Virus record (IMG/VR): IMGVR_UViG_3300036900_000192
Location: 1 to 43,845 of that record
DNA: 43,845 bases
Strand: one strand, 5' to 3'
DNA from: a virus
Below the pieces are notes generated by a model. It worked only from the letters and a program-made list of their open reading frames with translations. It did not search any database and was not told the DNA's origin. The position numbers were made by a program, and so were the translations under genes. This document shows positions 1 to 43,845 of this stretch, piece after piece. The first letter of the stretch is position 1, and the number at the start of each line of letters is the position of its first letter.

Positions 1-127
1 CCACGCGGGGTCGACCTGGCGCAGCCGGGCGGGCAGGTCGGCCAGCCGCACGCGGTCCGGCCCGGCGATCTCGGCCAGGTCGTCGAGCAGGTCCCGCGGG
101 GGCGCCCCGATCGCGGGCACATCCCGG
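1..127. repeat. terminal direct repeat marking a circular molecule
   Basis: Bases 1-127 are identical to bases 43719-43845. The translocase reading frame passes through the join without a shift, so the two ends are the same locus read twice. A 127-base overlap is what a k=127 assembler leaves on a closed circle, so this is more likely an assembly overlap than a biological terminal repeat. The non-redundant circle is 43,718 bp. Confidence 0.95.
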
Positions 128-2780: not shown

Positions 2781-3041
2781 ATGCCTAGCATGATCATCAT
2801 GCAGCCGCTCGTCATCGATACCCGCAGTTCAGTGCCCAGTTACCGCCAGCTGGCGGACCAGCTGCGCGCTGCTGTCGAATCCGGGGAAATCGCGCCCGAC
2901 GAGCCGCTCCCGTCGCTCACCCGCATCCGCCAGGAGACCGGCCTCGCCGTCGGCACCATCCAGAAAGGCATCGGCGTCCTGGTCGACGACGGCTACGCCT
3001 ACACCGTCCCCGGCCGCGGCACGTTCGCCCGCCCTGCGTGA
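2781..3041 (+). CDS. small GntR-family transcriptional regulator 1
   Basis: The protein has 86 residues and is essentially only the winged helix-turn-helix DNA-binding domain of the GntR family: PSYRQLADQLRAAVESGEI, then LPSLTRIRQETGLAVGTIQK, then a wing ending GRGTF. No effector domain follows. Such short GntR proteins (KorA/KorSA type) repress transfer genes in Streptomyces plasmids and integrative elements. Its position divergent from the translocase operon fits that role. The ATG at 2781 is used; ATGs at 2790 and 2799 are alternatives. Confidence 0.8.
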   Translation: MPSMIIMQPLVIDTRSSVPSYRQLADQLRAAVESGEIAPDEPLPSLTRIRQETGLAVGTIQKGIGVLVDDGYAYTVPGRGTFARPA

Positions 3042-3104: not shown

Positions 3105-3347
3105 ATGCGATCCGTAGACCGCAGTTCACGAACCCCCCCGTGGCAGCAGATCGCCGCCGCGCTGCGCGAGGAGATCACCCGGGGCCGCTACGGGCCTGAC
3201 GACCGGCTCCCGTCCGTCGCCGAGACCGCCGCGGCGTGGAGCGTCAACCGCAAGACCGCGAACAAGGCACTGCTCGCCCTCGCCGCGGAAGGGCTGATCG
3301 AGACGGAAGAGGGCATGGGCTACTACGTCAGGCCGGATGTGTCATAG
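3105..3347 (+). CDS. small GntR-family transcriptional regulator 2
   Basis: The protein has 80 residues and is again only the GntR winged-helix domain: PPWQQIAAALREEITRGRYG, LPSVAETAAAWSVNRKTANKA, and a wing ending GMGYYVRP. It is related to its upstream neighbour and may be an old duplication. Its stop codon lies inside the left arm of the predicted attP. It could regulate the integrase, the transfer operon, or both. Confidence 0.8.
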   Translation: MRSVDRSSRTPPWQQIAAALREEITRGRYGPDDRLPSVAETAAAWSVNRKTANKALLALAAEGLIETEEGMGYYVRPDVS

Positions 3348-3393: not shown

Positions 3394-4878
3394 GTGGCTA
3401 CCGGGACATCTGATGAATGGCTGTTGTACCTGCGTAAGAGCGTCGGCTACGCGGGCATAAGCCGCCAGCGCGCCAGCACCACGGACCACCTGGCCCGCCG
3501 CGGCGGTACCGTGGCGGCCGAGTTCTCCGACTCCGACCGCACCGCGTTCCGGTCCATCCGCGACGACATCGACGCCCCGATGCCCTACCGGCCGCGGTTC
3601 GCCGCGATGCTGGAGGAGATGGCGCGGCGTCCCGGCGTCGGCGTCGCCGCCTGGCACGCCGACCGGCTCGGCCGTGACCCGGAGGCGACCGAGATCCTGA
3701 TCCGCGCCTGCCGCCGCGGCGGCCACCTGATCAGCACCACCCGCGGCGGCGACTACGACGTCACCACCGCCAACGGGCGCAAGCACCTGCGGGACGACAT
3801 CAACGCGGCGACCCACGAGGTTGACCACAACACCGAGCGGCTGGTGGAGGCCAAGGCGGAGTACGCGGCGGAGGGCCGCTACCTGGGCGGCCTGCGGCCG
3901 TTCGGCTGGCGGACGACCGGGGAGCCCGGCGTCCTGGAGCTGGACGAGGCGGAGGCGGAGGCGGTCCGGAGGGCGTGCGGCGAGCTGCTTGCCGGGACGG
4001 CGGTCCGGGCGATCGCGCGGCAGTGGAACGAGGCGGGGCTGACCGGGACGGGCGGCGGCCGGTGGACGACCAGCACCGTGCACAAGGTGCTGTCGCGGCC
4101 GCGGAACGCCGGGCTGGCCGAGCACCGCGGGCGCGTCTTCGCCGTCGACGGCGGGGTGAAGTGGCCGGCCATCCTCGACGAGGAGACGTGGCGGGCCGTC
4201 GCCGCGGTGCTGTCCGACCCGGGGCGGCGGTCCAACCACGGCGGGACGGCGCCGTCTCACCTGCTGTCGGGCATCGCGCTGTGCGGCGGCTGCGGGCTGG
4301 CCGTCGTCGCCGGGAAGTCGGCGGACGGGACGCCGCGCTACCGGTGCTCGCGGCATTCCCGCGGGCTGCCGCGCCGCCCGGGCCCGCACGCCTCGCGGTG
4401 CGCCGCCGACGTCGACAGGCTCATCGCGTACCTGGCCGTGGGGCGGATGAAGCGGGACGACGCCGCGAGGCTGCTGCGGGAGGACCGCGGCGGGGAGCGC
4501 CCGGCGCTGCTGGCCCGGCGCGCTGTGCTGGAGGCGCGCAAGGCCGAGCAGTGGCGCCTGTACCAGGCCGGGGTGATCGACGACCTGGAGCTGGCGGACG
4601 GGCGCCGGCAGGTCCGTGAGGGCCTGGCGGACGTGGAGGCGCAGCTGCGGGCGATCGAGGCCGGGGACGTGATCGCGCCGTTCCTGGGCGACCCGGAGGG
4701 CACGTGGCGGCGGGCGCCGCTGGAGCTGAAGCGCGCTGTCGTCTCCGCGCTGATGCACGTGACCCTCATGCCGGGGGCGAAGTTCTCCCGGCCGCCCGGC
4801 TGGAAGCAGGGTGACGGGCAGTTTGACCCGCGGCTGGTCGACGTGCGGTGGGCGCGGCGGCTGCCGTCTGACGGCTAG
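3394..4878 (+). CDS. int: large serine recombinase (phage integrase)
   Basis: The 494-residue protein starts at GTG 3394. The N-terminal catalytic domain carries YLRKS, with Arg14 and the probable nucleophile Ser16, and a DRLGRD motif near residue 89. A recombinase domain follows (about 165-270), then a zinc ribbon with Cys297, Cys300, Cys318 and Cys336, and then a helical region of the kind that forms the coiled coil controlling direction. It would join attP to a chromosomal attB. Its stop shares CTAG with the opposing gene. Excision would need a directionality factor, which I cannot identify. Confidence 0.93.
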   Translation: MATGTSDEWLLYLRKSVGYAGISRQRASTTDHLARRGGTVAAEFSDSDRTAFRSIRDDIDAPMPYRPRFAAMLEEMARRPGVGVAAWHADRLGRDPEATEILIRACRRGGHLISTTRGGDYDVTTANGRKHLRDDINAATHEVDHNTERLVEAKAEYAAEGRYLGGLRPFGWRTTGEPGVLELDEAEAEAVRRACGELLAGTAVRAIARQWNEAGLTGTGGGRWTTSTVHKVLSRPRNAGLAEHRGRVFAVDGGVKWPAILDEETWRAVAAVLSDPGRRSNHGGTAPSHLLSGIALCGGCGLAVVAGKSADGTPRYRCSRHSRGLPRRPGPHASRCAADVDRLIAYLAVGRMKRDDAARLLREDRGGERPALLARRAVLEARKAEQWRLYQAGVIDDLELADGRRQVREGLADVEAQLRAIEAGDVIAPFLGDPEGTWRRAPLELKRAVVSALMHVTLMPGAKFSRPPGWKQGDGQFDPRLVDVRWARRLPSDG

Positions 4879-14223: not shown

Positions 14224-14271
14224 GCAAGTTGAGGCTTGGTCCGGAGGGACGAGGGAGACGGGAAGGCGTGG

Positions 14272-15084
14272 ATGGCAACCGGCGCGGCGAAATTGGCTTG
14301 GGAGAACTCGCGCGCCCAGAACGGATCACTGCTTCTCGTAATGGCGATCGCATTCGAGCTTGAGGCTAAGGGGAATTGCATCATGACCGTCGCGGAACTG
14401 GCCGGAAAGGCGCGGCTAAGTGAGCGCGCCGTTCAGGCTGCGACCGTGGACCTGACCAAACTAGGCGAACTGACGGTCACGCGGCGTGCCGAAGGGCACC
14501 GGAACGGCTACGCGCTGTCGATGCTCAGGGGTGCAGAATCTGCACCCCTACCGGCTGGTAGCCCCGCAGAATCTGCACCCCCGCAGATTCTGCACCCCGC
14601 AGAATCTGCACCCCTCAAACCGAAAGCTGCCGGTCAAGCCAGGGGCGCAAAATCTGCACCCCTCGAAATCTCCGACATGTTTGTAGTTAGTACAGGTAGT
14701 CATGTGGCTGAGGTTAAAGACGTGCCGGCAAAGCCGCCACGGCGCCGAAGCGACGGGCGCGAAGACGTCGACCGGCTCTGCAGCCACCTCGCCGACCGCA
14801 TCGCGGCCAACGGCTGCAAGCGCCCTAATCCCAATCAGAAATGGCGCGACGCCGCACGGCTCATGCTCGACGCCGACGGCCGCACCGAAAAGCAGGTGCA
14901 CAACATGATCGACTGGTGCCAGGACAGCGAATTCTGGCGCGGCAATATCCTCTCGATGCCAAAGCTCCGCGAGAAATACGACCAGCTCAAAATGCAGGCA
15001 ATGCGCCCCGCAAGGCAAGCGAACGGGAACGAGAACCTCGGCTACGTCGCCGCCTTCCTCAAGAGAAACGGAGCGGGCGAATGA
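14272..15084 (+). CDS. replication initiator with internal origin (lambda O-like)
   Basis: The 270-residue protein starts at ATG 14272; GGGAGACGGGAAGG lies upstream and a GTG at 14236 is an alternative. Residues about 10-85 form a winged-helix DNA-binding domain (IMTVAELAGKARLSERAVQA). Residues 86-131 are encoded by iterons and repeat AESAPL. The C-terminal part (150-260, EKQVHNMIDWCQDSEFW) matches helicase-recruiting domains of phage initiators. It probably binds the iterons inside its own gene and loads host DnaB with the next gene's product. No phage helicase or polymerase is encoded. Confidence 0.75.
   Translation: MATGAAKLAWENSRAQNGSLLLVMAIAFELEAKGNCIMTVAELAGKARLSERAVQAATVDLTKLGELTVTRRAEGHRNGYALSMLRGAESAPLPAGSPAESAPPQILHPAESAPLKPKAAGQARGAKSAPLEISDMFVVSTGSHVAEVKDVPAKPPRRRSDGREDVDRLCSHLADRIAANGCKRPNPNQKWRDAARLMLDADGRTEKQVHNMIDWCQDSEFWRGNILSMPKLREKYDQLKMQAMRPARQANGNENLGYVAAFLKRNGAGE
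14527..14720. other. ori: predicted replication origin: five iterons plus AT-rich segment
   Basis: GCAGAATCTGCACCCC occurs at 14533-14548, 14566-14581 and 14599-14614. Variants lie at 14583-14598 (T at the centre) and 14647-14662 (GCAAAATC...). Each core is a palindrome, GCAGA-A-TCTGC. The first copy extends to a 23-bp palindrome with 11-bp arms (14527-14549). The next 58 bases (14663-14720) are about 41% G+C by hand count, far below the surroundings, and could be the unwinding element. The layout matches lambda's origin inside gene O. Confidence 0.72.
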
Positions 15085-18802: not shown

Positions 18803-19147
18803 ATGACAACTGCCAAGGTCACCCTGATCATCGACAGCGCCGACGCCACGGGCACCCTCCTCACCCGCGGCGCTATCCGGATCATCCCTTCCCAGCGGGT
18901 CAGCGACACCGCAGACGGCCTGCTGGTGGAGACCGCGGCCGTCCGCGTGCCGCTCACCGGCTGCGGCACGGCGCCCAGCGTGAACCTGTTCCCGAATGAC
19001 CTCATCGGCCCGCAGGGAGTCAGCGCGCCCGACTGGTCGTACACCATCCACTACGACAGCTGCCCCGGCAACCCGCAGCCCTGGTCATTCCACCTGCTGA
19101 GCGCCGGCGGCAGCACGCAGCGGCTGTCGTCGCTCACCGCCTTGTGA
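18803..19147 (+). CDS. virion-type beta domain protein
   Basis: The protein has 114 residues; GGAGGTGA lies 7 bases before the ATG. The pattern GTLLTRGAIRIIPSQR, then VRVPLTGCGTAPSVNLFPND, then DWSYTIHYDSCPG and PWSFHLLSAGG matches a beta-sandwich module often found in actinophage tail or fibre proteins. It heads the glycosyltransferase cluster, so it may be a surface protein that is modified. That link is inference. Confidence 0.5.
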   Translation: MTTAKVTLIIDSADATGTLLTRGAIRIIPSQRVSDTADGLLVETAAVRVPLTGCGTAPSVNLFPNDLIGPQGVSAPDWSYTIHYDSCPGNPQPWSFHLLSAGGSTQRLSSLTAL

Positions 19148-20106
19148 CGGGAGTTCACTTGCGCATTGCCGTTACCGGCGCCGCCGGCTACATCGGCGGT
19201 CACCTGTGCCGGGAACTGACCGCCCGCGGCCATGAGGTCTACGCCATGGACAAGCGGTGGCGGGACGTCGCGGCAGGCGAGTACGAGACGTGGGGGTTTG
19301 ACCTCGCCGACGACGAGTCACGCAAGGTGTGGCTGGCCGTGCGCCCGGACGTGGTGGTGCACCTCGCGGCACTGTACGGCCGCGTCTGGGGTGAAGCCGA
19401 CCTGATCGCGACGGCGGCGCAGAACGCGGGCATCACAGCCGCCGTCGCCCGTGACACCGCCAAGGCCAGCGCGCGCCTGGTCTACGTCTCCTCCAGCGAG
19501 GTCTACGGGTCGGCCGCCGGCAGTCCCGGCGCGATGCTGGCCCCGCTGAACATGTACGGCCTGACCAAGAAGTGGGGCGAGGAAGCCGCGCGGCTCTACT
19601 GCCCGGACGGCCTCGTGATCGCCCGGCTGAACATGCCCTACGGGCCGCCCGTCACCGACCCGGAGCGCGGCACTTCCCCGCCGCACTCCGGCCGCGCCGG
19701 GCCGTCCGGCTACAACATGCTGCACACCTTCCTGTGGCAGGCCGCCAACGGGCTGCCCGTCACGGTGCACCGCGGCGCCGAGCGGTCCATGACGTGGATC
19801 GGCGACGCCGTCGCAGGCCTCGCGCAGCTCACCGAAACAGAGGGGCTCAGCTGGCCGGCCTGGGACGTGTGCCGCGACGACGACTACCGCAGCGTGGCCG
19901 ACATCGCCGCCCTCGCCGTGAAGCTCGCCGGGTCGCAGTCGGAAGTCCGCGAAGTGGAGATGCCGGAAGGGATCACCCCGCGTAAGCGCCTCGGCTCCTC
20001 GCCGCTGCGCCACCTCGGCTGGGAGCCGAAGGTGAGCCTTGAGGACGGCATGGTGATGTCGCTGCCGCACTTCGCCCGCTACGACGCCGGCGGCGTGTTC
20101 CGGTGA
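19144..20106 (+). CDS. NAD-dependent epimerase/dehydratase (extended SDR)
   Basis: The 320-residue reading starts at GTG 19144; a TTG at 19159 is also possible. The Rossmann motif GAAGYIGG starts at residue 12. The catalytic YxxxK is Tyr138 to Lys142, with SSSEVYG just before it. The fold fits sugar-nucleotide epimerases or dehydratases that use NAD. It probably prepares an activated sugar for the five glycosyltransferase-like genes that follow, all overlapping by a few bases. The exact sugar cannot be told. Confidence 0.85.
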   Translation: MTGVHLRIAVTGAAGYIGGHLCRELTARGHEVYAMDKRWRDVAAGEYETWGFDLADDESRKVWLAVRPDVVVHLAALYGRVWGEADLIATAAQNAGITAAVARDTAKASARLVYVSSSEVYGSAAGSPGAMLAPLNMYGLTKKWGEEAARLYCPDGLVIARLNMPYGPPVTDPERGTSPPHSGRAGPSGYNMLHTFLWQAANGLPVTVHRGAERSMTWIGDAVAGLAQLTETEGLSWPAWDVCRDDDYRSVADIAALAVKLAGSQSEVREVEMPEGITPRKRLGSSPLRHLGWEPKVSLEDGMVMSLPHFARYDAGGVFR

Positions 20107-20771
20107 CCCCGCTGCTGTCGGTGCTGATCGCGACCGTCCCGCACCGGGCGGAGAAGCTCGCGCAGCTGCTCGGCGTCCTGCTGCCGCAGGCTGAGAAGTG
20201 GCATTTCGAGGTGATCGGCCTGCGCAACGCCGGCGACAAGCCGCTCGGCGAGTACCGTGCCGCGCTGCTTGACGAGGCGCGCGGCACCTACGCGTGCTTC
20301 GTCGACGACGACGACACGGTCCCGGGCTGCTACGCCGCCGCGATCTTCAAGGCGGCCGTGAACAACCCGGACGTGATCGGGTTCGAGCAGCAGTGCAGCG
20401 GCTACGGCATGGCGGCGTCGCGCTGCTCGATCAGCCTCCGTTGGGTTAACCCGCCGCAAGAGGCCATCGCCGGGTGGTACCTGCGCAGCGTCTCGCACGT
20501 CTGCCCGGTCAGGACGGAACTCGCCCGCCAGGCACCGTGGACGTCGATGCTGCCGCACACCGGAGAGGACATGGACTGGGCGCGGCGCATGACGCCGCTG
20601 CTCAGGGACCGCGGCAGCAACGAGGCGTACATCGACCGGGTGATGTACCACTACCAGTGGACCGCGGCCGACAGCACGCAGTTCGGGATGCGCGACCGCT
20701 ACCGCGGCCACGAACCCGGCCCGCTGCCGTCGTTCCCGGCGCCGTTCAGGTGGCACGAGTGGTCCCGCTGA
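20103..20771 (+). CDS. GT2-like glycosyltransferase
   Basis: The protein has 222 residues. It starts LLSVLIATVPHRAEKL, typical of GT-A family 2 enzymes, and has a metal/nucleotide-binding cluster FVDDDDTVPGC near residue 62. GEDMDWARRM later in the chain resembles the acceptor-side ED motif. It would move a sugar from a nucleotide donor to an unknown acceptor. GTG 20103 overlaps the epimerase stop. Confidence 0.72.
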   Translation: MTPLLSVLIATVPHRAEKLAQLLGVLLPQAEKWHFEVIGLRNAGDKPLGEYRAALLDEARGTYACFVDDDDTVPGCYAAAIFKAAVNNPDVIGFEQQCSGYGMAASRCSISLRWVNPPQEAIAGWYLRSVSHVCPVRTELARQAPWTSMLPHTGEDMDWARRMTPLLRDRGSNEAYIDRVMYHYQWTAADSTQFGMRDRYRGHEPGPLPSFPAPFRWHEWSR

Positions 20772-21379
20772 TCACCGTCGTCATCCCGACCGTCGACGGC
20801 CGCGAGGACCAGCTGGCACGGACGCTCGGCGCGTACGCGTCGCAGGCGCCCGGCGCCTACCGGCTGAACGTGATCGTGGTGCACAATCTCCCGTGCGTCG
20901 GCGCGGCATGGCAGCAAGGCGCCGGCAGCGCCACCGGTGACTACCTGCACCTGGGCAACGACGACACCGAGCCGCATCCCGGCTGGCATCTCCCGGCGAT
21001 CGAGAGCGCGGACGCCGGGATGCTGCCCGCACCGCAGGTTTACGGGCCCGCTGGCGAGCCGCAGTCGCTGCCCGAGTGGGGCAAGCTCGCCGCCGACGGC
21101 ACGCCCGTCTCGATGAGCACCATCCCGTTCTGCACGATGGCGCAGTGGGAGAAGATCGGCCCGCTGGACACCCGGCTGCACTACTACGCGGATGATTTCT
21201 TCAGCTTCCGCGGCAAGCTGGCCGGCTACCCGGTGGTGCTCCGCAGCGGCTACGCGTTCACCCACCAGTGGGCGCAGCCGGGCCGCGGCGCCGGGATGAG
21301 CGAGGGCGGCCGGATGGTTCATGACCTGCCGCTGTACCAGCAGTCATGCGCCCGGGCCGCGGCGGGTGACTGGCCGTGA
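20759..21379 (+). CDS. GT2-like glycosyltransferase
   Basis: Starts are GTG 20759 or GTG 20750; both overlap the preceding gene. The roughly 206-residue protein begins VPLITVVIPTVDGREDQLAR and carries LGNDDTEPHPGW, a GT-A type DxD-like site. It is a compact family 2 enzyme, likely made together with its neighbours. Confidence 0.7.
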   Translation: MVPLITVVIPTVDGREDQLARTLGAYASQAPGAYRLNVIVVHNLPCVGAAWQQGAGSATGDYLHLGNDDTEPHPGWHLPAIESADAGMLPAPQVYGPAGEPQSLPEWGKLAADGTPVSMSTIPFCTMAQWEKIGPLDTRLHYYADDFFSFRGKLAGYPVVLRSGYAFTHQWAQPGRGAGMSEGGRMVHDLPLYQQSCARAAAGDWP

Positions 21380-24120: not shown

Positions 24121-24477
24121 ATGAATGAGAAGCCGCCGACCGGGCTGGGCGCCAAGGCGCGCAAGTTCTGGCTTGCCGCGGTTTCGGAGTTCGGTTTCAG
24201 GCTTGACGAGCTGCGCGTGCTCGAGGACGCGTGCCGCGAGATGGACCTGATCGACCGGATGGAGAAGGAGCAGCGCGGCAGGCCCCTGATTGCGCGCGGC
24301 TCGCAGGGCCAGGAAGTGGCGGCGCCCCTGATCCAGGAGCTGAGGCAGCACCGGGCGACGCTGGCGCGGCTGCTGTCGCAGCTGGCGATCCCGGATGAGG
24401 GCGCCGAGGGCGGCGACGCGTCGCGGTCGGCGGCGGCCCGCGAGCTGATCATGGCCCGGTGGCGGCGTGGCTCATAG
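24121..24477 (+). CDS. terminase small subunit (P27-like)
   Basis: The protein has 118 residues. The pattern PPTGLGAKARKFWLAAVSEF, then LDELRVLEDACREMDLIDRM, fits P27-family small terminases, which recognise phage DNA and bring it to the motor. A helical middle and a basic C-terminus follow. The large terminase start overlaps its end by 11 bases. Confidence 0.8.
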   Translation: MNEKPPTGLGAKARKFWLAAVSEFGFRLDELRVLEDACREMDLIDRMEKEQRGRPLIARGSQGQEVAAPLIQELRQHRATLARLLSQLAIPDEGAEGGDASRSAAARELIMARWRRGS

Positions 24478-26296
24478 GCAGGCCGCGGACGACACCGCGG
24501 AGGTGACCGCGGCGGTCGTCGGCTGGTACCGCGGAGAGCTGGCCGAGCCTGCGCGGTTCCCGTGGTCGGGTTCGCGGGCGAGCTGGCGGGAGAAGCCGGG
24601 TTCTCCGCTGGTGCTGCCGGTGCCGGAGCTGATCGGGCCGAGCTGGCAGACGCGAGAGGGCCGCTGGCTGCTGCCGGAGTACAGCCTCGGGTGGGGGATG
24701 CTGGGCTGGTACGGGACGTGGCTGCAGTTGTCGCCGGGGGTTGCGTGGCGGCACACGCTTGAGCAGGCGCGGTGGACGCTGTGGTGGTACGCGGTTGACG
24801 GGCGCGGCCGGTTCACGCACCGGGACGCGGTTTTGCAGCGGCTGAAGGGGTGGGGGAAGGACCCGCTGGCGGCGGCTTTGTGCGCGGGGGAGATGCTGGG
24901 CCCGTGCCGGTTCGCCGGGTGGGATGCGGACGGCCAGCCGATAGGTGAGCCGCACCCGCAGCCGTGGGTGCAGACGGCGGCGACGTCGCTCGAGCAGACG
25001 AAGAACACGATGCTGCTGTTCCAGTACCTGTTCACCCCGGCGGCGGTCGCGAAGTGGCGTTTGCAGGTGCTGAAGGAGAAGGTGCACGGCGCAGGCGGGG
25101 CGCTGATCGAGGCGGTCACGTCGTCCCCGGCGACGCTTGAGGGCGCGCGGAGCACGTTCGTGCTGATGAACGAGACGCAGCACTGGAATGCGTCCAACTC
25201 GGGCCATGACATGGCGGACGTGATCGAGCGGAACGTGACGAAGAGCCCGGACGGGGCGGCGCGGACGCTGGCGATCACGAACGCGCCGATGCCGGGCGAG
25301 GACAGCGTGGCTGAGCGGACGCGGGACGCGTGGGAGCTGGCACAGTCGGGGAAGGCGGCGGATGTCGGCCTGATGTACGACTCGGTTGAGCCGCCGGCGG
25401 GGGCGCCGCTGCCGGAGGTCGGCAATGAGCAGGCTGAGGAGTTCGCCCGTGAGGTGATCCGGGCGGTGCGGGGTGACTCGACGTGGCTGGACGTGGACCG
25501 GATCTTGCAGTCGATGCAGGACGTGCGGAACGCGCCGAGCAGGTCGCGGCGGTTCTGGTACAACGAGCTCCATTCGCCGGAGGACGCGTGGTGCGCGCGG
25601 GCCGAGTGGGAGGCGTGCAAGGTCGAGGGCCTGGAGCTGGCTGACGGCGACTGGATTGTCCTGTTCGGTGACGGGAGCAAGAGCGACGACGCGACGGCGC
25701 TGGTCGGCTGCCGGATGGATGACGGTGCAGTGTTCCTGCTGGGCTGCTGGCAGCGCCCGCAGCACGCGAAGGACTGGCGGGTCGACCGGGCTGAGGTTGA
25801 CGGGGCGGTGACGGACGCGCACGGGCGGTTCCGGGTGTGCGGCTTCTTCTGGGACCCGGCGCCGGGCACCGATGAGGAGACGGGCGACCGCTACTGGGAC
25901 GATCTGGTGACGGAGTGGGCGCTGCGCTGGGGCGAGACGTACTTCACGAGGGCGAGCGATAAGCACGCGGTGAGCTGGCCGATGGACAAGAACCACCCGG
26001 CGAACGTGCGCGACTTCACCGTCGCGGCCGGACAGGGGCGGGCGGACGTGACGCGGCGCGACCTGCCGCACGACGGGAAGCGGCTGCTGCGGATCCACGT
26101 GTGCAACATGCGCCGGCGCCTGAACAAGTGGGGCGTCTCGGTTGGCAAGGAGCACCGTGAGTCGTCGGCGAAGATCGACGCCGGCGTGTGCGTGATCGGC
26201 GCGCGGATGCTGCGCCGCCGGGTGCAGCTGTCTAAGGAGTGGATGCGCGAGCTCCGTAAGGCGCGCGGTCAGGGAAGGGTGGTGGTTTTCCGGTGA
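24467..26296 (+). CDS. terminase large subunit
   Basis: The 609-residue protein starts at GTG 24467. The ATPase half has a Walker A-like GWGKD at residues 128-132 and a Walker B-like STFVLMNE near 230. The nuclease half begins around IVLFGDGSKSDDATA, with acidic residues that bind metal. It cuts and pumps the genome into heads through the portal. The long open frames on the opposite strand here are shadows. Confidence 0.88.
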   Translation: MAHRQAADDTAEVTAAVVGWYRGELAEPARFPWSGSRASWREKPGSPLVLPVPELIGPSWQTREGRWLLPEYSLGWGMLGWYGTWLQLSPGVAWRHTLEQARWTLWWYAVDGRGRFTHRDAVLQRLKGWGKDPLAAALCAGEMLGPCRFAGWDADGQPIGEPHPQPWVQTAATSLEQTKNTMLLFQYLFTPAAVAKWRLQVLKEKVHGAGGALIEAVTSSPATLEGARSTFVLMNETQHWNASNSGHDMADVIERNVTKSPDGAARTLAITNAPMPGEDSVAERTRDAWELAQSGKAADVGLMYDSVEPPAGAPLPEVGNEQAEEFAREVIRAVRGDSTWLDVDRILQSMQDVRNAPSRSRRFWYNELHSPEDAWCARAEWEACKVEGLELADGDWIVLFGDGSKSDDATALVGCRMDDGAVFLLGCWQRPQHAKDWRVDRAEVDGAVTDAHGRFRVCGFFWDPAPGTDEETGDRYWDDLVTEWALRWGETYFTRASDKHAVSWPMDKNHPANVRDFTVAAGQGRADVTRRDLPHDGKRLLRIHVCNMRRRLNKWGVSVGKEHRESSAKIDAGVCVIGARMLRRRVQLSKEWMRELRKARGQGRVVVFR

Positions 26297-26481
26297 TCGA
26301 GCCGCCGTGCAGTTTCCGGGCTGTCTTTCACTGGCCGACGTTCTACCGGTACCGCGTGGGCTTGCGTGGCTTGCGCGTGACGCCGAACCGCTATGGCCAC
26401 GCCGTGATCGGCCTGGCGCTGGTTGCCGGCCGTTATGCCTACTGCGTGAAGTGGGCGGACGCGAGGGCGGTTTTCCGGTGA
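26293..26481 (+). CDS. 62-residue small protein between terminase and portal
   Basis: GTG 26293 overlaps the terminase stop and the end overlaps the portal GTG. The same TTTTCCGGTGA end/start joint occurs at both junctions. The peptide is aromatic- and arginine-rich with a hydrophobic stretch (AVIGLALVAGRYAYCV). Function is unknown. Confidence 0.45.
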   Translation: MIEPPCSFRAVFHWPTFYRYRVGLRGLRVTPNRYGHAVIGLALVAGRYAYCVKWADARAVFR

Positions 26482-28025
26482 GCATCCTGTGGGAGACGCC
26501 GCTGTCACTCGGCATGCCGCTCGACCTGGCGAACGATGTCCTGTCGCCGGATGAGCAGGACATCGCCGACCGGCTGCTGATGCGGCTGAACCAGGACCTG
26601 CCGTACCTGAACGTGCGGGCGGAGTACTACGACGGCGAGCAGCGGATGCGGCACCTGGGCATATCGGTGCCGCCGGAGCTTGAGCACAAGCTGCGGGCGG
26701 CGGTCGGCTGGCCGCGGGTGATCGTCGACGCGATCAGGTACAAGCTGCGGGTCAGCGGGTTCCGGTACCCGTCGGCGCTTGAGGCGGACAGCGACATGTG
26801 GGACATCTGGACGGCGAACAAGATGCGCGCCAAGTCCCAGCTGGCGCACCTGGCGTGCCTGAAGTACGGCCGCTGCTTCCTGGTGGCCGGGTCTGAGGGC
26901 CCGCGGGGGATGCCGCTGATCACGGCGGAGAGCCCGACGACGATGGCGGCGGAGTTCGACGCGGCGACTCACCAGGTGACGGCGGCGCTGCAGCTGTACC
27001 GGTATTACGGGGCGCAGGCGGCGGCACTGTACCTGCCGGGTCAGACGATTCACCTGGTGCGCCAGGCGACGGTGCCGGGGGGCACTGTACAGCAGTGGGA
27101 GCTGAGCAGCCGGGACGTGCACGGCCTGGAGCAGCCGCCGGTGACGATGATGGCGAACCGGGCCGAGCTCGAGGACCTGTACGGGCGCAGCGAGATCACC
27201 CCGGAGGTCATGAGCATCACCGACGCGGCGTGCCGCCGGCTGCTCGGCATGGACGTGGCCAGCGAGTTCTTCGGCACTTTGCAGCGGTACATCATCGGCG
27301 CGGCGATGAGCAACTTCCAGACGCCGGACGGTGACCCGATCGCGGCGTGGGAGAGCTACATCGGCCGGCTGCTGGTGCTGGAGCGGGATGAGGAAGGCAA
27401 CGTGCCGGCGGTGGGCACGTTCAGCGCTAACTCGCCGCAGCCGCTGATCGACGTTTTGCAGCTGTACGCGCGCCTCATGTCCTCGGTGTCGCGGGTAAGC
27501 GCGCACCGCTTCGGCCTTTCGACGGATAACCCGGTGTCGGCGGAGGCGATCAAGGCGGAGGACGCGCAGCTTGACGAGCTGGCGGTCAGCAAGCAGGAAG
27601 CCTATTCGGACCCGTGGATGGCGTGCATGCAGCATGCGCTGGCGATCGGGAACGGCGGGAGCCTGCCGGGTGACGCCCGGTACCTGGAGGTGCTGTGGGC
27701 GTCGCCGTCGGTGCCGTCCCCGGCGGTGCTGGCGCAGGCGGCGCTGGCGAAGGTACAGGCGGGCATGGTGCCGTCAACCTCGGACGTGCTGCTTGAGGAG
27801 GTCGGTTACTCGCCGCCGCAGATCAAGCGGATCGAGGCGGACCGCAAGCGGGCGGCGTCGCAGGAGGACCTGGCGGCGATCGCGGACGCCCTGTCCACCG
27901 GGACCCTGGCCAAGGAGCTCGGCGCGGAGGCGGGGACGATGAACCCGGCACAGGCAGAGAAGACGGCGGCGGGGAACGCGGCGGGTGCCGGTGGCACAGC
28001 AGGCCAGCAGCCAGCCGGCCGCTGA
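26478..28025 (+). CDS. portal protein
   Basis: The 515-residue protein starts at GTG 26478. Order and features fit SPP1/HK97-type phage portals: an N-terminal alpha/beta part (YYDGEQRMRHLG), a long helical stem (FGLSTDNPVSAEAIKAEDAQ) and a C-terminal low-complexity tail. It forms the ring in the head vertex through which DNA moves. The MuF-like gene overlaps its end. Confidence 0.88.
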   Translation: MSILWETPLSLGMPLDLANDVLSPDEQDIADRLLMRLNQDLPYLNVRAEYYDGEQRMRHLGISVPPELEHKLRAAVGWPRVIVDAIRYKLRVSGFRYPSALEADSDMWDIWTANKMRAKSQLAHLACLKYGRCFLVAGSEGPRGMPLITAESPTTMAAEFDAATHQVTAALQLYRYYGAQAAALYLPGQTIHLVRQATVPGGTVQQWELSSRDVHGLEQPPVTMMANRAELEDLYGRSEITPEVMSITDAACRRLLGMDVASEFFGTLQRYIIGAAMSNFQTPDGDPIAAWESYIGRLLVLERDEEGNVPAVGTFSANSPQPLIDVLQLYARLMSSVSRVSAHRFGLSTDNPVSAEAIKAEDAQLDELAVSKQEAYSDPWMACMQHALAIGNGGSLPGDARYLEVLWASPSVPSPAVLAQAALAKVQAGMVPSTSDVLLEEVGYSPPQIKRIEADRKRAASQEDLAAIADALSTGTLAKELGAEAGTMNPAQAEKTAAGNAAGAGGTAGQQPAGR

Positions 28026-28716
28026 CTACCAGCGGCGCCAGGCGCTGCTCGCATCCGCGCTGGCGGTGCAGGTGGACGCGGCATTCACGTCGCTACTGGT
28101 GATCGGTGACCTGCGGGCGTCGCTGCCGGTCTTGTCGGCCGGGGTGGCGGCGCTGGTGCAGCGGTACGGGTCCGCGTCAGCGGGGATCGCCGCGTCGTAC
28201 TACGACCAGGCGCGCGCCGCGGCCGCGGTCAAGGGCGCGTTCCACGTGGTTCCCGCTTCGCCGGCCGGCCTGGATCAGGTTACGCAGTCGGTGCGGTTCG
28301 CGACGCGGACCCTGTGGAGCTCGCGGCCCGACACCGCCCCGGCGAAGGCGATGACGCGGGCAGTCGCCGAGCGGCACGTGATGGACGCGGGCCGGGACAC
28401 GATCACGGCGGCCGTTGCGGGGGACCGGCAGGCGCGCGGGTGGGCGCGGGTGACGCGGCCGGGGTGCTGCTACTTCTGCGCGATGCTCGCAACCAGGGGC
28501 GGCGCGTACCTGTCGAAGCAGAGCGCCGAGTTCAAGAAGGGCACCGACGAGCCCTACCACGACCACTGCCACTGCGTGCCTGAGCCGGTTTTCGGGGCGT
28601 ACGAGATGACGGCCGATGCCCGCGCCTGGCAGGCACTGTGGCGCTCGTCGACGAAGGGCCTCTCGGGTGATGAGGCCGTTAAGGCTTTCCGGCAGGCGTT
28701 CGAAGGCCGGGATTAG
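27985..28716 (+). CDS. MuF-like minor head protein
   Basis: The protein has 243 residues; GTG 27985 or 27991 could be the start. The C-terminal RPGCCYFCAMLATRGGAYLS, then DEPYHDHCHCVPEPVF, is the Cys/His signature of MuF/capsid maturation-type proteins of actinophages. The N-terminal part is helical. It is thought to be packaged in the head or to help its assembly. No protease active site is evident. Confidence 0.75.
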   Translation: MPVAQQASSQPAADYQRRQALLASALAVQVDAAFTSLLVIGDLRASLPVLSAGVAALVQRYGSASAGIAASYYDQARAAAAVKGAFHVVPASPAGLDQVTQSVRFATRTLWSSRPDTAPAKAMTRAVAERHVMDAGRDTITAAVAGDRQARGWARVTRPGCCYFCAMLATRGGAYLSKQSAEFKKGTDEPYHDHCHCVPEPVFGAYEMTADARAWQALWRSSTKGLSGDEAVKAFRQAFEGRD

Positions 28717-28731
28717 GCCCCGAAACGGGGC
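28717..28731 (+). other. short hairpin between MuF and scaffold genes
   Basis: GCCCCG-AAA-CGGGGC forms a 6-pair stem with a 3-base loop right after the MuF stop. Without a T-run it may be a weak terminator or an mRNA processing/stability element that tunes scaffold and capsid output. Confidence 0.4.
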
Positions 28732-28756
28732 GAAACCATCCGAAACGGAGGGTGAA

Positions 28757-29365
28757 ATGGCTGAAGACGGCCAGCAGGACCAGGACCAGGACGCAGCCGC
28801 GGACGCGGGCCAGCAGGGCGCCGGCGCAACGCCGGACACCGACTGGGAAGCCGAGGCGAAGAAGTGGCAGGCCCTGTCCAAGAAGAACGAGGACCGCGCC
28901 AAGGCGAACTCGGCAGCCGCAAAGAAGCTCGCAGACCTCGAGGCGGAGAACCAGTCCGACCTCGAGCGGGCGCAGGCCGAGCGTGACGCGGCCCGCGCCG
29001 AGATCACCGCGGCCCGCGAGGGCGTCGCGGCGGCGCGGCTCGAGGCGGCGCTGACCGGCCTCGTCGACGACCCGGCGGCCGAGGTCGCCGACCTGAACAT
29101 CAGCCGTTTCCTCGGCGATGACGGCCAGGTCGACCCGGAGAAGGTGTCGGCACTCAAGGCGCGGTACGCGTCGCGCGTGCCGCCGTCCGGCCCGCGGGCC
29201 CCGGCGCCGAACCCGGCGCAGGGCAACGGCACGCGGCAGCTGACGCTCCCGCAGATGGTCGCCGAGCTTGAGGCCAAGCCGGGCAAGTCGCGGGCCGAGC
29301 AGGTGGAGCTGGGGCGCCTGAAGGCGCGGCAGCTCATGCAAGTCAAGCAGCAGCAGCAGGGCTAG
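28757..29365 (+). CDS. scaffolding protein
   Basis: The protein has 202 residues, with CGGAGGGTGAA just before the ATG. It is acidic and Gln-rich at the N-terminus, a long coiled coil in the middle (LADLEAENQSDLERAQAERD) and basic at the C-terminus (LGRLKARQLMQVKQQQQG). This layout and its place just before the capsid gene are typical of scaffolds that guide capsid shell assembly. Confidence 0.82.
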   Translation: MAEDGQQDQDQDAAADAGQQGAGATPDTDWEAEAKKWQALSKKNEDRAKANSAAAKKLADLEAENQSDLERAQAERDAARAEITAAREGVAAARLEAALTGLVDDPAAEVADLNISRFLGDDGQVDPEKVSALKARYASRVPPSGPRAPAPNPAQGNGTRQLTLPQMVAELEAKPGKSRAEQVELGRLKARQLMQVKQQQQG

Positions 29366-29400
29366 GGCGCGGTGCCCGGCCCGGAAAAGAGAGGTAAGTC

Positions 29401-30363
29401 ATGGCGGTTAGCGGCCAGGGCACCACGTACAACCTTCCCAACTACCACGGGCGCTTGTTCGAAGTCTCCCCGACGGCGACCCCGTTCCTGAGCATGATCG
29501 GCGGGATCAACGGGGCCAAGACGATCCACAGCAAGACGTGGGAATGGCAGACGATCGGCGTGCGCAGCGCGTCGAACAACAACGTGGCGGCGGAAGGCGC
29601 GGCGGCGCCGACGGCGAGCGAGCAGGCACGGTCGAACGTCTTCAGCGTCACCGAGATCCACCACTCCAAGATCGACATCAGCTACTCCAAGCAGGCCGCG
29701 ACCGCGCAGTACGCCGGCCAGAACGTGGGCCCGGAGTTCGACGACGCGGTGATCGCCGAGGTGCAGCTGCAGATCGACCAGGAGCTCAAGGCGATCGGCC
29801 TCGACCTGGAGAAGAGCTTCCTGTCTGGCGTCTACCAGCTGCCGACGGACAACAACAGCAACCGGCAGACCCGCGGCATCCTGTCGGCGATCACCACGAA
29901 CCTGTGCACCGGCTCCGGTGCGGCGCTCACCACCGCGATGATCGAGACGACCCTGCTGAAGTCGATGTGGGACCACGGCGCCCCGCTCGACCAGGACAAC
30001 ACCGTGTTCATCTGCGACAGCGAGTCTGCCGGGTACATCAACAAGCTGTACTCGACGAGCTCGTCGCTGTCGGCGCCGACCCGTGACCGCACCATCGGCG
30101 GCATGGCGATCAAGACGATCACCACGATCTTCGGCACGTTCGGCGTGGTCATGGACAGGTCGATGCCCGCCAAGACGCTGCTGGTCGCGGACCTGTCGGT
30201 GTGCTTCCCGGTGTTCACCGAGGTCCCGAACAAGGGGATCTTGTTCACCGAGCCCCTGGCCAAGACGGGCTCGTCGGACCCGTACCAGATCTACGGCGAG
30301 ATCGGCCTGGAGTACGGGCCGGAGATCTACCACGGCGCGCTCGTCAGCTACGCCGCGGCGTAA
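29401..30363 (+). CDS. major capsid protein (HK97 fold)
   Basis: The protein has 320 residues. It begins MAVSGQGTTYNLPNYHGRLF and has E-loop and P-domain-like segments (EWQTIGVRSASNNNVAAEGA; LIASNVIAE-type helix near 120). The pattern resembles the HK97-fold SU10-type/DUF5309-like major capsid group of actinophages. It is preceded by the scaffold and followed by connectors. The ATG has GAGAGG upstream. Confidence 0.85.
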   Translation: MAVSGQGTTYNLPNYHGRLFEVSPTATPFLSMIGGINGAKTIHSKTWEWQTIGVRSASNNNVAAEGAAAPTASEQARSNVFSVTEIHHSKIDISYSKQAATAQYAGQNVGPEFDDAVIAEVQLQIDQELKAIGLDLEKSFLSGVYQLPTDNNSNRQTRGILSAITTNLCTGSGAALTTAMIETTLLKSMWDHGAPLDQDNTVFICDSESAGYINKLYSTSSSLSAPTRDRTIGGMAIKTITTIFGTFGVVMDRSMPAKTLLVADLSVCFPVFTEVPNKGILFTEPLAKTGSSDPYQIYGEIGLEYGPEIYHGALVSYAAA

Positions 30364-37436: not shown

Positions 37437-37943
37437 ATGAGCAGAGTACGCACGCGGCAGGTAAGCGCAGGTCAAGTCTTCGGACGCTGGACAGTGGAGG
37501 TGGCTGATGACGGAGGTGTACCGCACAGAGCGCACTGCCGCTGCGCCTGCGGCACACTGCGCTGGGTCATCATCACCAACCTGGTCCGTGGCTATACCAC
37601 GTCCTGCGGCTGCCGGAAGCGGGAAGAGCTGTCCGCAAAGCCGCACGCGGTCAAGCACGGGCTGTCTGAGCACCCGCTGTACGACTGCTGGGCGCAGATG
37701 GTGCAGCGGTGCACTAACCCGGAGAACAGGTCTTTCAAGAACTACGGGGCGCGCGACATACGCGTTTACGGGCCGTGGTTCAGCGTGGCCGAGTTCATCG
37801 CGTGGATCACGGCCAACCTGGGGGAACGCCCTGACGGCTGCTCGCTTGACCGCATCAACAATGACGGGCACTACGAGCCGGGTAATGTCCGCTGGTCTAC
37901 CAGTTCTGCGCAGGCGCGAAACCGGCGGTCACGCTGGCGTTAG
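37437..37943 (+). CDS. HNH homing endonuclease
   Basis: The 168-residue protein starts at ATG 37437. CRCACGTLRWVIITNLVRGY, then SCGCRKREELSAKPHAVKHG, then CSLDRINNDGHYEPGNVRWS followed by AQARNRR is the pattern of HNH enzymes with a DNA-binding zinc part that are common as free-standing homing genes in phages. It has its own promoter and interrupts the tail operon. It would cut genomes lacking it to spread itself. Confidence 0.8.
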   Translation: MSRVRTRQVSAGQVFGRWTVEVADDGGVPHRAHCRCACGTLRWVIITNLVRGYTTSCGCRKREELSAKPHAVKHGLSEHPLYDCWAQMVQRCTNPENRSFKNYGARDIRVYGPWFSVAEFIAWITANLGERPDGCSLDRINNDGHYEPGNVRWSTSSAQARNRRSRWR

Positions 37944-42126: not shown

Positions 42127-42399
42127 ATGCTCGCCCTGGTCCTGTCCGCGTCGCTGTCCACTGTCTGCTGCGTGTTCTGGGTGGCCCTGGCGGCAGGGTG
42201 GGCGCTTGGGTACGCGCACCGGGGGCTGGTCGGCTGCCGGCCGCTCCGGTGGGCGGCGGCGGCGTGGCGGTGGTGGGCGCGGGTGACGTGGCGGCTGCTG
42301 ATCGGGCGGCAGGACCCGCATGCCGGCTGGTACGTGGACCGTGACCGGGTGCCCGGTGCCTGCGAGCCGGAGTACCCGAGCTTCAGGCGGGCGCGCTAA
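42127..42399 (+). CDS. small membrane protein at the end of the lysis cassette
   Basis: The 90-residue reading starts at ATG 42127. One or two hydrophobic segments at the N-terminus (LVLSASLSTVCCVFWVALAA) are followed by Trp/Arg-rich sequence. It overlaps the opposing gene by 4 bases at its stop. A lysis accessory role is possible from position only. Confidence 0.5.
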   Translation: MLALVLSASLSTVCCVFWVALAAGWALGYAHRGLVGCRPLRWAAAAWRWWARVTWRLLIGRQDPHAGWYVDRDRVPGACEPEYPSFRRAR

Positions 42400-42572
42400 C
42401 GTCCGAGCAGCATGTGCCACTCGTCGTGACGGGCGACGTTCACCACCAGCGCGCCGCAGCGCAGGCACGCCAGCGGCGGATGGCCGCCGTCCGCCTCGCC
42501 GTAGCCCAGCAGCGGGCCGGGCGTGATCACGATCTCGTACTTCGGCAGGTGACTGTTGGGATCGTCGTCCAT
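42396..42572 (-). CDS. 58-residue C2H2-like zinc peptide
   Basis: ATG 42572 is used. ACLRCGALVVNVARHDEWH gives CxxC and HxxxH at zinc-finger spacing, a pattern seen in small actinophage proteins. It is the last gene of the minus-strand operon and ends against the plus-strand late genes. Function is unknown. Confidence 0.55.
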   Translation of the reverse strand: MDDDPNSHLPKYEIVITPGPLLGYGEADGGHPPLACLRCGALVVNVARHDEWHMLLGR

Positions 42573-42576
42573 GCCG

Positions 42577-42696
42577 TCAACCTTCCCTTTCCAGCAGCGC
42601 CTCAAGCTGCGCCTCCGCCTCAGCGTCTCCCGCCTCCCGCAGGTCGCGCACGAGCTGGTCAGCCAGCCACACGGGCAGCCGGGCAACATCAGGCAT
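42577..42696 (-). CDS. 39-residue acidic helical peptide
   Basis: ATG 42696 to TGA 42577 encodes MPDVARLPVWLADQLVRDLR..., an amphipathic helix, 4 bases before the next gene's start. It follows the three GGTAGAG repeats. No family is recognised. Confidence 0.5.
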   Translation of the reverse strand: MPDVARLPVWLADQLVRDLREAGDAEAEAQLEALLEREG

Positions 42697-42707
42697 GCGG
42701 GAACTCC

Positions 42708-42732
42708 GGTAGAGGCGGGTAGAGCGGTAGAG
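42708..42732. repeat. three GGTAGAG repeats
   Basis: GGTAGAG occurs at 42708-42714, 42718-42724 and 42726-42732, just upstream of the minus-strand 39-residue gene (as CTCTACC on that strand). It may be a regulator site or a minor repeat. Confidence 0.4.
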
Positions 42733-42972: not shown

Positions 42973-43190
42973 GTCGGCTCGTCCTCGCCGCCGATCTTCC
43001 CGGCCTGCACCCGCGCCATCACGATCAGCAGCTCGTCCAGCGAGTGCGCGCTCACCTCGTCCCGCGACGCCACGAACTCATCGTGCGCCCCGTCGTAGCG
43101 GATGTGCCAGCCGTCCCGCATCGCCCGGTCAAGCTGCCTGCTCCGCAGCGCCTGGCTGCCGTCGTACGTCCCCGCGCCCGGTCCTGACAT
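42969..43190 (-). CDS. 73-residue hypothetical protein
   Basis: ATG 43190 overlaps the preceding stop. The peptide (MSGPGAGTYDGSQALRSRQL, DRAMRDGWHIRYDGAHDEFV) ends with an acidic helix (HSLDELLIVMARVQAGK). A small alpha/beta fold is likely; no family is recognised. Confidence 0.5.
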   Translation of the reverse strand: MSGPGAGTYDGSQALRSRQLDRAMRDGWHIRYDGAHDEFVASRDEVSAHSLDELLIVMARVQAGKIGGEDEPT

Positions 43191-43405
43191 CACCGCCCGC
43201 CCTCGCGCATCTCGGCCTCGTACGCCGCCAGGTGCTCGCGGTCCCACTCCCGGCTGGCCGCAAGGGTGTACAGCTCGGACTCGTACTTCGGCTTGTGCAC
43301 CACGGGCGCGTCTTCCACGGGTTGCTCCCGTCCGCGTTCCGGCTTGGTTTCCGTCCGGTCGTGGACGACCATCAGTGGTCGCCTGGCGCTGCTGAACAGT
43401 CCCAT
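43190..43405 (-). CDS. 71-residue charged protein
   Basis: ATG 43405 has GAGAGGAACGGGAA upstream. The sequence is very charged (HDRTETKPERGREQPVEDAP) with a helical C-terminus (REWDREHLAAYEAEMREGG). It starts a set of small genes after the CGGGTTAG array and may be transcribed with the translocase operon or from its own promoter. Confidence 0.55.
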   Translation of the reverse strand: MGLFSSARRPLMVVHDRTETKPERGREQPVEDAPVVHKPKYESELYTLAASREWDREHLAAYEAEMREGGR

Positions 43406-43418
43406 TTCCCGTTCCTCT

Positions 43419-43527
43419 CGGGTTAGCTGCCGTGGCAGCGGGTTAGGTTTCCAACCCCGGCCATTCCGGGGCTAACAAGCTTCTGACCTGCGATTGTTAG
43501 CCGGGTTAGATGCCCGGCGCGGGTTAG
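43419..43527. repeat. four CGGGTTAG repeats; candidate clt/TRS locus
   Basis: CGGGTTAG is exact at 43419-43426, 43439-43446, 43502-43509 and 43520-43527, all in one direction. The inverted pair GGCTAACAA (43470-43478) and TTGTTAGCC (43494-43502) and the hairpin CCCCGG-CCATT-CCGGGG (43455-43471) lie between them. The array starts 51 bases after the translocase stop. In Streptomyces plasmids TraB reads 8-bp TRS repeats (GACCCGGA in pSVH1) at the clt site near its gene. The same use here is inferred. Confidence 0.55.
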
Positions 43528-43577
43528 CCGACGCTCGCCCGGTGCCCCCTGGAAGCGCAAATTGAAGACAGCCACGG

Positions 43578-43845
43578 CTAACTCACCTCTCGCTCCGCGA
43601 TCGCCCGTCGCAGGTCGGCCGGGTCCAGCATCGGCACGTTGCCCGGGTTCGTGGTGCGCACGCCGAGCTCGTCGAGCTGCTGCCGCAGCCGCTTGCCGTC
43701 GAGTCCGCGGTATGGCAGCCACGCGGGGTCGACCTGGCGCAGCCGGGCGGGCAGGTCGGCCAGCCGCACGCGGTCCGGCCCGGCGATCTCGGCCAGGTCG
43801 TCGAGCAGGTCCCGCGGGGGCGCCCCGATCGCGGGCACATCCCGG
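43578..43845 (-). CDS. FtsK/TraB-like translocase, C-terminal end
   Basis: This is the 3' end of the gene described at 1-1968 (bases 43719-43845 repeat 1-127). The unique part, 43578-43718, encodes the last 46 residues, LPYRGLDGKRLRQQLDELGV...MLDPADLRRAIAEREVS, a winged-helix-like DNA-reading domain. The frame is continuous through the join: 656 codons in 1-1968 and 47 with the stop here. Confidence 0.85.
   Translation of the reverse strand, partial: RDVPAIGAPPRDLLDDLAEIAGPDRVRLADLPARLRQVDPAWLPYRGLDGKRLRQQLDELGVRTTNPGNVPMLDPADLRRAIAEREVS

Follow-up and report, generated by a model that had tools for sequence, protein, structure and literature searches.

TraB-type proteins, which bind 8-bp repeats of the transfer site clt, transport DNA in double-stranded form across the membranes of the mycelium, and Spd proteins are required for spread within the mycelium (PMC12857230). 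The clt sites described for the plasmids pSVH1, pJV1, pIJ101 and pWTY27 are built from short direct and inverted repeats that are read by the element's own Tra protein (PMC3583192, PMC12857230); that of pWTY27, for example, is a TraA-bound site with repeats of both kinds and comprises the last 16 bp of traA together with the adjacent 159 bp (PMC3583192). A 2022 paper raises the question whether elements use their own TraB or borrow that of another, with no clt known for pSAM2 (PMC9513070). The question matters, as the cargo choice of a Streptomyces-type translocase determines what passes from one mycelium to another, be it plasmids, integrative elements, phages or pieces of the chromosome. Here we describe a repeat array behind the gene of a TraB/FtsK-type translocase in the IMG/VR virus record IMGVR_UViG_3300036900_000192 (43,845 bp, analysed over its whole length and termed the window in the following). 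The array is best explained as a phage-borne, clt-like recognition site whose specificity is new; more widely, the analysis yielded a recognition code that extends across the translocase family. A search of the open-licence literature brought up no study of arrays of this type, be it in integrative elements or in phages.

The original prediction had pointed to four exact, same-direction copies of one 8-mer, with an additional perfect 9-bp inverted repeat, right after the translocase stop codon. The repeat array in 43419–43527 is real: four exact copies of CGGGTTAG stand on the plus strand at 43419–43426, 43439–43446, 43502–43509 and 43520–43527, and no cluster of this kind (at least four same-strand copies of one 8-mer in 110 bp) occurred in any of 60 dinucleotide-shuffled genomes. 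In the whole phage genome, counted on both strands, CGGGTTAG has a single copy outside the array (37714–37721, minus strand) and is thus not equally frequent elsewhere; shuffles of the whole window gave an expectation of 0.68 copies, with a largest count of 3 and never 5. One further cluster by the same definition is found in the phage, at 14539–14662. The core shared by the array sites was counted as GTTAG on the plus and CTAAC on the minus strand, with array strands given on window coordinates; 7 of its 23 genomic sites fall within the ~160 bp of 43422–43582, as compared to a maximum of 3 per 170 bp in 200 shuffles. While the four 8-mers do run in the same direction, this does not hold for the core sites, five of which are GTTAG on the plus strand (43422, 43442, 43496, 43505 and 43523) and two CTAAC (43472 and 43578). 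The 9-bp inverted repeat is likewise present (GGCTAACAA at 43470–43478 and TTGTTAGCC at 43494–43502, 15 nt apart), and a spacer element, CTGACCTGC, lies at 43483–43491 on the plus strand, that is, on the opposite strand relative to tra.

With regard to its position, the array lies downstream of the translocase gene, which ends on the minus strand with a stop codon at 43578–43580, and fills the 172-bp gap 43406–43577 before the next minus-strand open reading frame (ORF), a small one of 71 aa at 43190–43405 that has no family match; the core copy at 43578 overlaps the stop codon itself. The clt of pWTY27 is found in the same place, directly 3' of an FtsK-like tra gene and overlapping its end (PMC3583192), and this match in place and make-up argues that the array is most likely the loading site of the phage translocase. 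The unit itself is different, with a GTTAG core here as compared to TGACACC in pWTY27 and CCGCACA(C/G)(C/G) in pJV1 (PMC3583192). Unlike the plasmid sites, moreover, the present one is carried by a phage with terminase, portal and head genes, and binding by its translocase is presumed.

Arrays of this type turned out to be a feature of the translocase family. The translocase is 44–62 % identical in sequence to FtsK-type proteins of Streptomyces and related elements, and is common in Streptomyces and its kin: relatives were detected in 94 of 394 genomes of the family (E 1e-90), 14 of 394 of the class (1e-70), 75 of 293 of the order (1e-60) and 96 of 392 of the genus (1e-120), these draws overlapping one another, as well as in five plasmid records (best identity 61 %). 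A tblastn search of named phages with a 656-aa part of the translocase yielded none among 50,697 records at E 1e-5, and DNA searches of named phages with the right half of the window and with the array gave no match. For the array survey, the 250 nt behind the stop codon were inspected on both strands in 125 distinct translocase loci (the window and 124 relatives, after removal of L015 and L088 as duplicates). One 8-mer occurred at least four times in 113 of the 125, as opposed to 1/124, 1/123, 0/94, 0/125 and 0/124 in five sets of control stretches, and the repeat strength of 120 of the 125 loci was matched by at most 5 of 100 shuffles. As a rule, forward units are followed by reverse units, then by a TGA(C/T)C(A/T)GC element and finally by two more forward units, with this spacer consensus present in 97 of 124 relatives' arrays but in only 1/124 stretches within the gene and 7/124 at 800–1050 nt. 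A plain inversion of the relatives' array was considered for the window and rejected, as only part of the site layout agrees with it, even though the spacer does stand inverted with respect to tra.

The repeat unit of the relatives, written as N1N2N3N4GAG, is CAGGGAG in most loci and C/TGGGGAG in others, with rarer forms besides, and all copies within an element change together. FtsK and SpoIIIE read G-rich 8-mers, KOPS and SRS, respectively, by means of a C-terminal winged helix; the unit GGCAGGGAGG of the actinomycete integrative and conjugative elements (AICEs) resembles these, whereas KOPS and SRS are dispersed over chromosomes and the array sites are clustered at one place. The original prediction had asked for arrays and C-terminal domains to vary together among related elements, and this is what was found. 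In the 794-column alignment of the translocases, column 762, which holds the tip residue of the hairpin predicted in the C-terminal domain (K-S-D-G or K-S-H-G), was the best for N2, with a corrected mutual information (MI) of 0.62 of 0.78 bits as compared to 0.36 for the next column. An aspartate at this wing position goes with N2 = A in 81 of 81 loci and a histidine with N2 = G in 17 of 17 (the window itself and two loci with ties, L042 and L086, are left out of these counts). N2 changes 16 times on a tree from which the C-terminal domain was omitted, and all nine independent pairs among the D and H rows are concordant (sign test, p 0.0039). N1 broadly follows the tree, variants of N3 and N4 are too scarce for MI (1 and 3 loci, respectively), and a K-to-T change that accompanies N4 = T is suggestive only.

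The wing rule was written down beforehand and new genome loci were then fetched, to which viral loci that had already been seen earlier were added as held-out loci. This set comprised 100 of 110 loci (6 were already in the original set, 2 had less than 230 nt downstream and 2 duplicates were dropped), 83 of which have at least four copies of one 8-mer behind tra, and 81 had a predictable residue and at least four units. The rule was right in 80 of these 81 (21/21 for H; 59/60 for D, E and S), although these loci are closely related to the first set, with a median neighbour identity of 88 %, and do not represent independent lineages. The lone miss is L137, a CAGTGA-type array with mixed counts. 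When set against the unit of the nearest relative in 80 rows (L176, L177, L179 and L181 being left out), the rule scored 79 as compared to 69 and was right in all 10 disagreements. These results suggest that one amino acid of the translocase may set which DNA letter is read in the array. Arrays with the unit GGGGAAG occur in L176 and L179 next to a different wing, GKSVGQSV, and constitute a further specificity class.

A C-terminal domain of the window's own type is found in four loci, all with CTAAC arrays of similar spacing. Besides the window, these are two viral contigs, L140 with a terminase gene and L147 with Prim-Pol and a distant match to a tail protein, and the bacterial genome locus L280, which resembles an integrative element, gave no terminase match, and has helicase- and integrase-like genes that were judged from sequence only. 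Counted in the sense of tra, the sites stand at offsets 74, 92, 101, 155 and 175 in the window extract, at 23, 41, 49, 106 and 125 in L140, at 88, 106, 115, 172 and 204 in L147, and at 77, 85, 141 and 160 in L280, the latter with a reverse copy at 119. The arrays account for 5 of the 8 GTTAG/CTAAC sites of L140 and for 6 of the 14 of L147. The layout is conserved although the translocases of these loci are only ~50 % identical.

Taken together, the conserved presence of the array 3' of translocase genes of this family and the way in which its unit varies with the domain support a clt-type site of new specificity, as originally proposed, and we consider it highly probable that the adjacent TraB/FtsK-type translocase reads the array as a clt-like site for its loading. 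According to this model, the winged-helix-like C-terminal domain of the phage's translocase would bind the GTTAG-core units (CTAAC on the translocase sense strand), which are arranged in a conserved layout around the spacer element; the bound array would then tag the phage DNA as the cargo on which a hexamer assembles, and the translocase would move double-stranded DNA through the septum or into a neighbouring hypha, much as TraB does for Streptomyces plasmids and actinomycete integrative elements.

Several points weigh against this model. Binding of the array, loading of a hexamer and transfer of phage DNA by the translocase are steps that we infer from sequence. The covariation was measured on GGGAG-type arrays and the link to the window's type comes from four loci; 12 of the 125 loci lack four exact copies of an 8-mer; and wing residues N (G in 6 loci, A in 3) and G (G in 3, A in 2) go with either base. 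Furthermore, the published determinant of TraB is helix alpha-3 (quoted in PMC3583192), whereas the covarying residue lies here at the predicted wing tip. The C-terminal domain itself is predicted to fold as helix-helix-helix-hairpin-helix (models with pLDDT 82 and 77), and structure searches place many winged helices among its best matches, which are however weak (Z at most 7.2); no outstanding FtsK-gamma-specific match was obtained with Foldseek and VIA-align, an absence from which no conclusion is drawn. Finally, the adjoining domain and array can swap as one block, as seen in tree neighbours with swapped ends such as L083 and L094, and linkage alone explains part of their co-inheritance. 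Taken to its end, this would turn the array into non-functional repeats that merely hitch-hike behind the translocase gene, which we regard as very improbable: neighbouring C-terminal columns score far lower than column 762, the base is told much more reliably by this single wing residue than by linked columns and also better than by the nearest relative, all copies in an element change together, and the layout persists in the window-type loci in spite of their divergent proteins.

Two further alternatives to a clt-like loading site arise from the neighbourhood of the array. One is that the array serves the small downstream genes as an operator or promoter to which a phage regulator binds. It does stand in an interval between two genes of the minus strand, with its last copy next to the probable ribosome-binding site of ORF 43190–43405, and two GntR-family regulators are encoded nearby (2781–3041 and 3105–3347, plus strand, divergent from the tra operon). 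The tra operon, however, starts on the other side of tra, so that GntR sites would be expected near 2600–2800, and among relatives the genes 3' of the array vary while the array persists and its unit covaries with the translocase; we therefore consider an operator unlikely. The other alternative is a replication origin with initiator-bound iterons near rep genes, for which pWTY27 offers a precedent in its iterons, short repeats in direct and inverted orientation close to rep genes (PMC3583192); in L018, prim-pol and DUF3631 genes lie 3' of the array. This appears similarly unlikely, and if anything slightly more so, as the phage possesses a replication initiation O-like gene (14236–15084, plus strand; phrog_391) with its own five iterons (14526–14663) far from the array. 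Of 25 virus records searched, 9 had a Prim-Pol match of any kind at E ≤ 0.001 and 1 a DUF3631 match, with no Prim-Pol in the window. The replication genes change in this way between elements, whereas the array stays with tra and its unit varies with the presumed DNA-binding domain of the translocase. The O-like gene with its iterons is a candidate for a separate origin of the lambda-O type. Its iterons, five copies of ~20 bp with the core GCAGAATCTGCACCCC, resemble repeats in replication genes of Pseudomonas phages, and this likeness makes the iteron seem conserved across distant hosts.

The presence of terminase large subunit, portal and major head protein genes (24467–30363, plus strand) identifies the element as a phage, and tape measure, RecE and RecT genes are also encoded in the window; in correction of the original prediction, the carrier is a temperate phage. 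Its ends are identical, with window positions 1–127 repeated exactly at 43719–43845, and the record is accordingly circular with a length of 43,718 bp. The translocase gene crosses the record ends, running on the minus strand from 1968 to 1 (FtsK_SpoIIIE, PF01580; 31 bits, cut-off 24) and resuming at 43718 up to the stop codon at 43578, to give ~702 residues with the winged-helix-like domain in the 3' part (43578–43718); hydrophobic stretches are visible in the sequence, as read by eye with respect to an N-terminal membrane segment. Upstream of it lies a DUF2637 protein (PF10935; 1958–2608, minus strand), SpdB-like by position; in the relative L018, a gene close to tra is annotated as spdB. 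Together with the GntR regulators and a large serine integrase (3394–4878, plus strand; PF07508, PF00239; phrog_95), this arrangement is reminiscent of AICEs of the pSAM2/pMEA300 kind, which share an FtsK/SpoIIIE-family Tra and a SpdB-like protein, and AICE-like relatives with arrays are in fact found (L018, L280). In contrast to AICEs, an O-type initiator of phage kind and virion genes are encoded in the window, and searches aimed at Prim-Pol and DUF3631/RepAM, out of the AICE replication modules (RepSA, RepAM or Prim-Pol), gave no match there. A phage-like replicon with transfer genes, the plasmid-phage pZL12 of Streptomyces, is reportedly a precedent for this combination.

The translocase was furthermore found on 27 viral contigs (L132–L158), which may be fragments or include host flanks, and 16 of these also carry a terminase gene, which hints at actinophages that can spread by a route without virions. 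In 13 of the 16, the terminase is within 6 kb downstream of the translocase and on the same strand, with the translocase 2–4 kb upstream of it; these contigs form a separate group of actinobacterial prophages in which transfer module and packaging gene are neighbours. Where translocase and array lie upstream of a terminase on the same strand, transfer may be coordinated with the late region. It is conceivable, though we would not yet call it probable, that a class of temperate actinophages equipped with a SpdB-like protein, a TraB-type translocase and a private array moves its circular genome between hyphal compartments or into neighbouring mycelium without virions, with the cargo set by the code of wing residue and unit base. 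If true, phages with the module would spread in two ways. Beyond phages, the arrays provide candidate clt sites for more than 100 elements, along with a prediction of one residue for one base.

The phage or a very close relative has been met at least twice, as a 9.3-kb viral contig (L159) from another metagenome sample encodes a terminase that is 100 % identical to that of the window. Elsewhere in the window, three copies of CTCTACC stand on the minus strand at 42708–42732, just upstream of ORF 42396–42689, and the mid-genome stretch 19144–21379 gave a nucleotide-sugar epimerase-like match together with a weak glycosyltransferase match.
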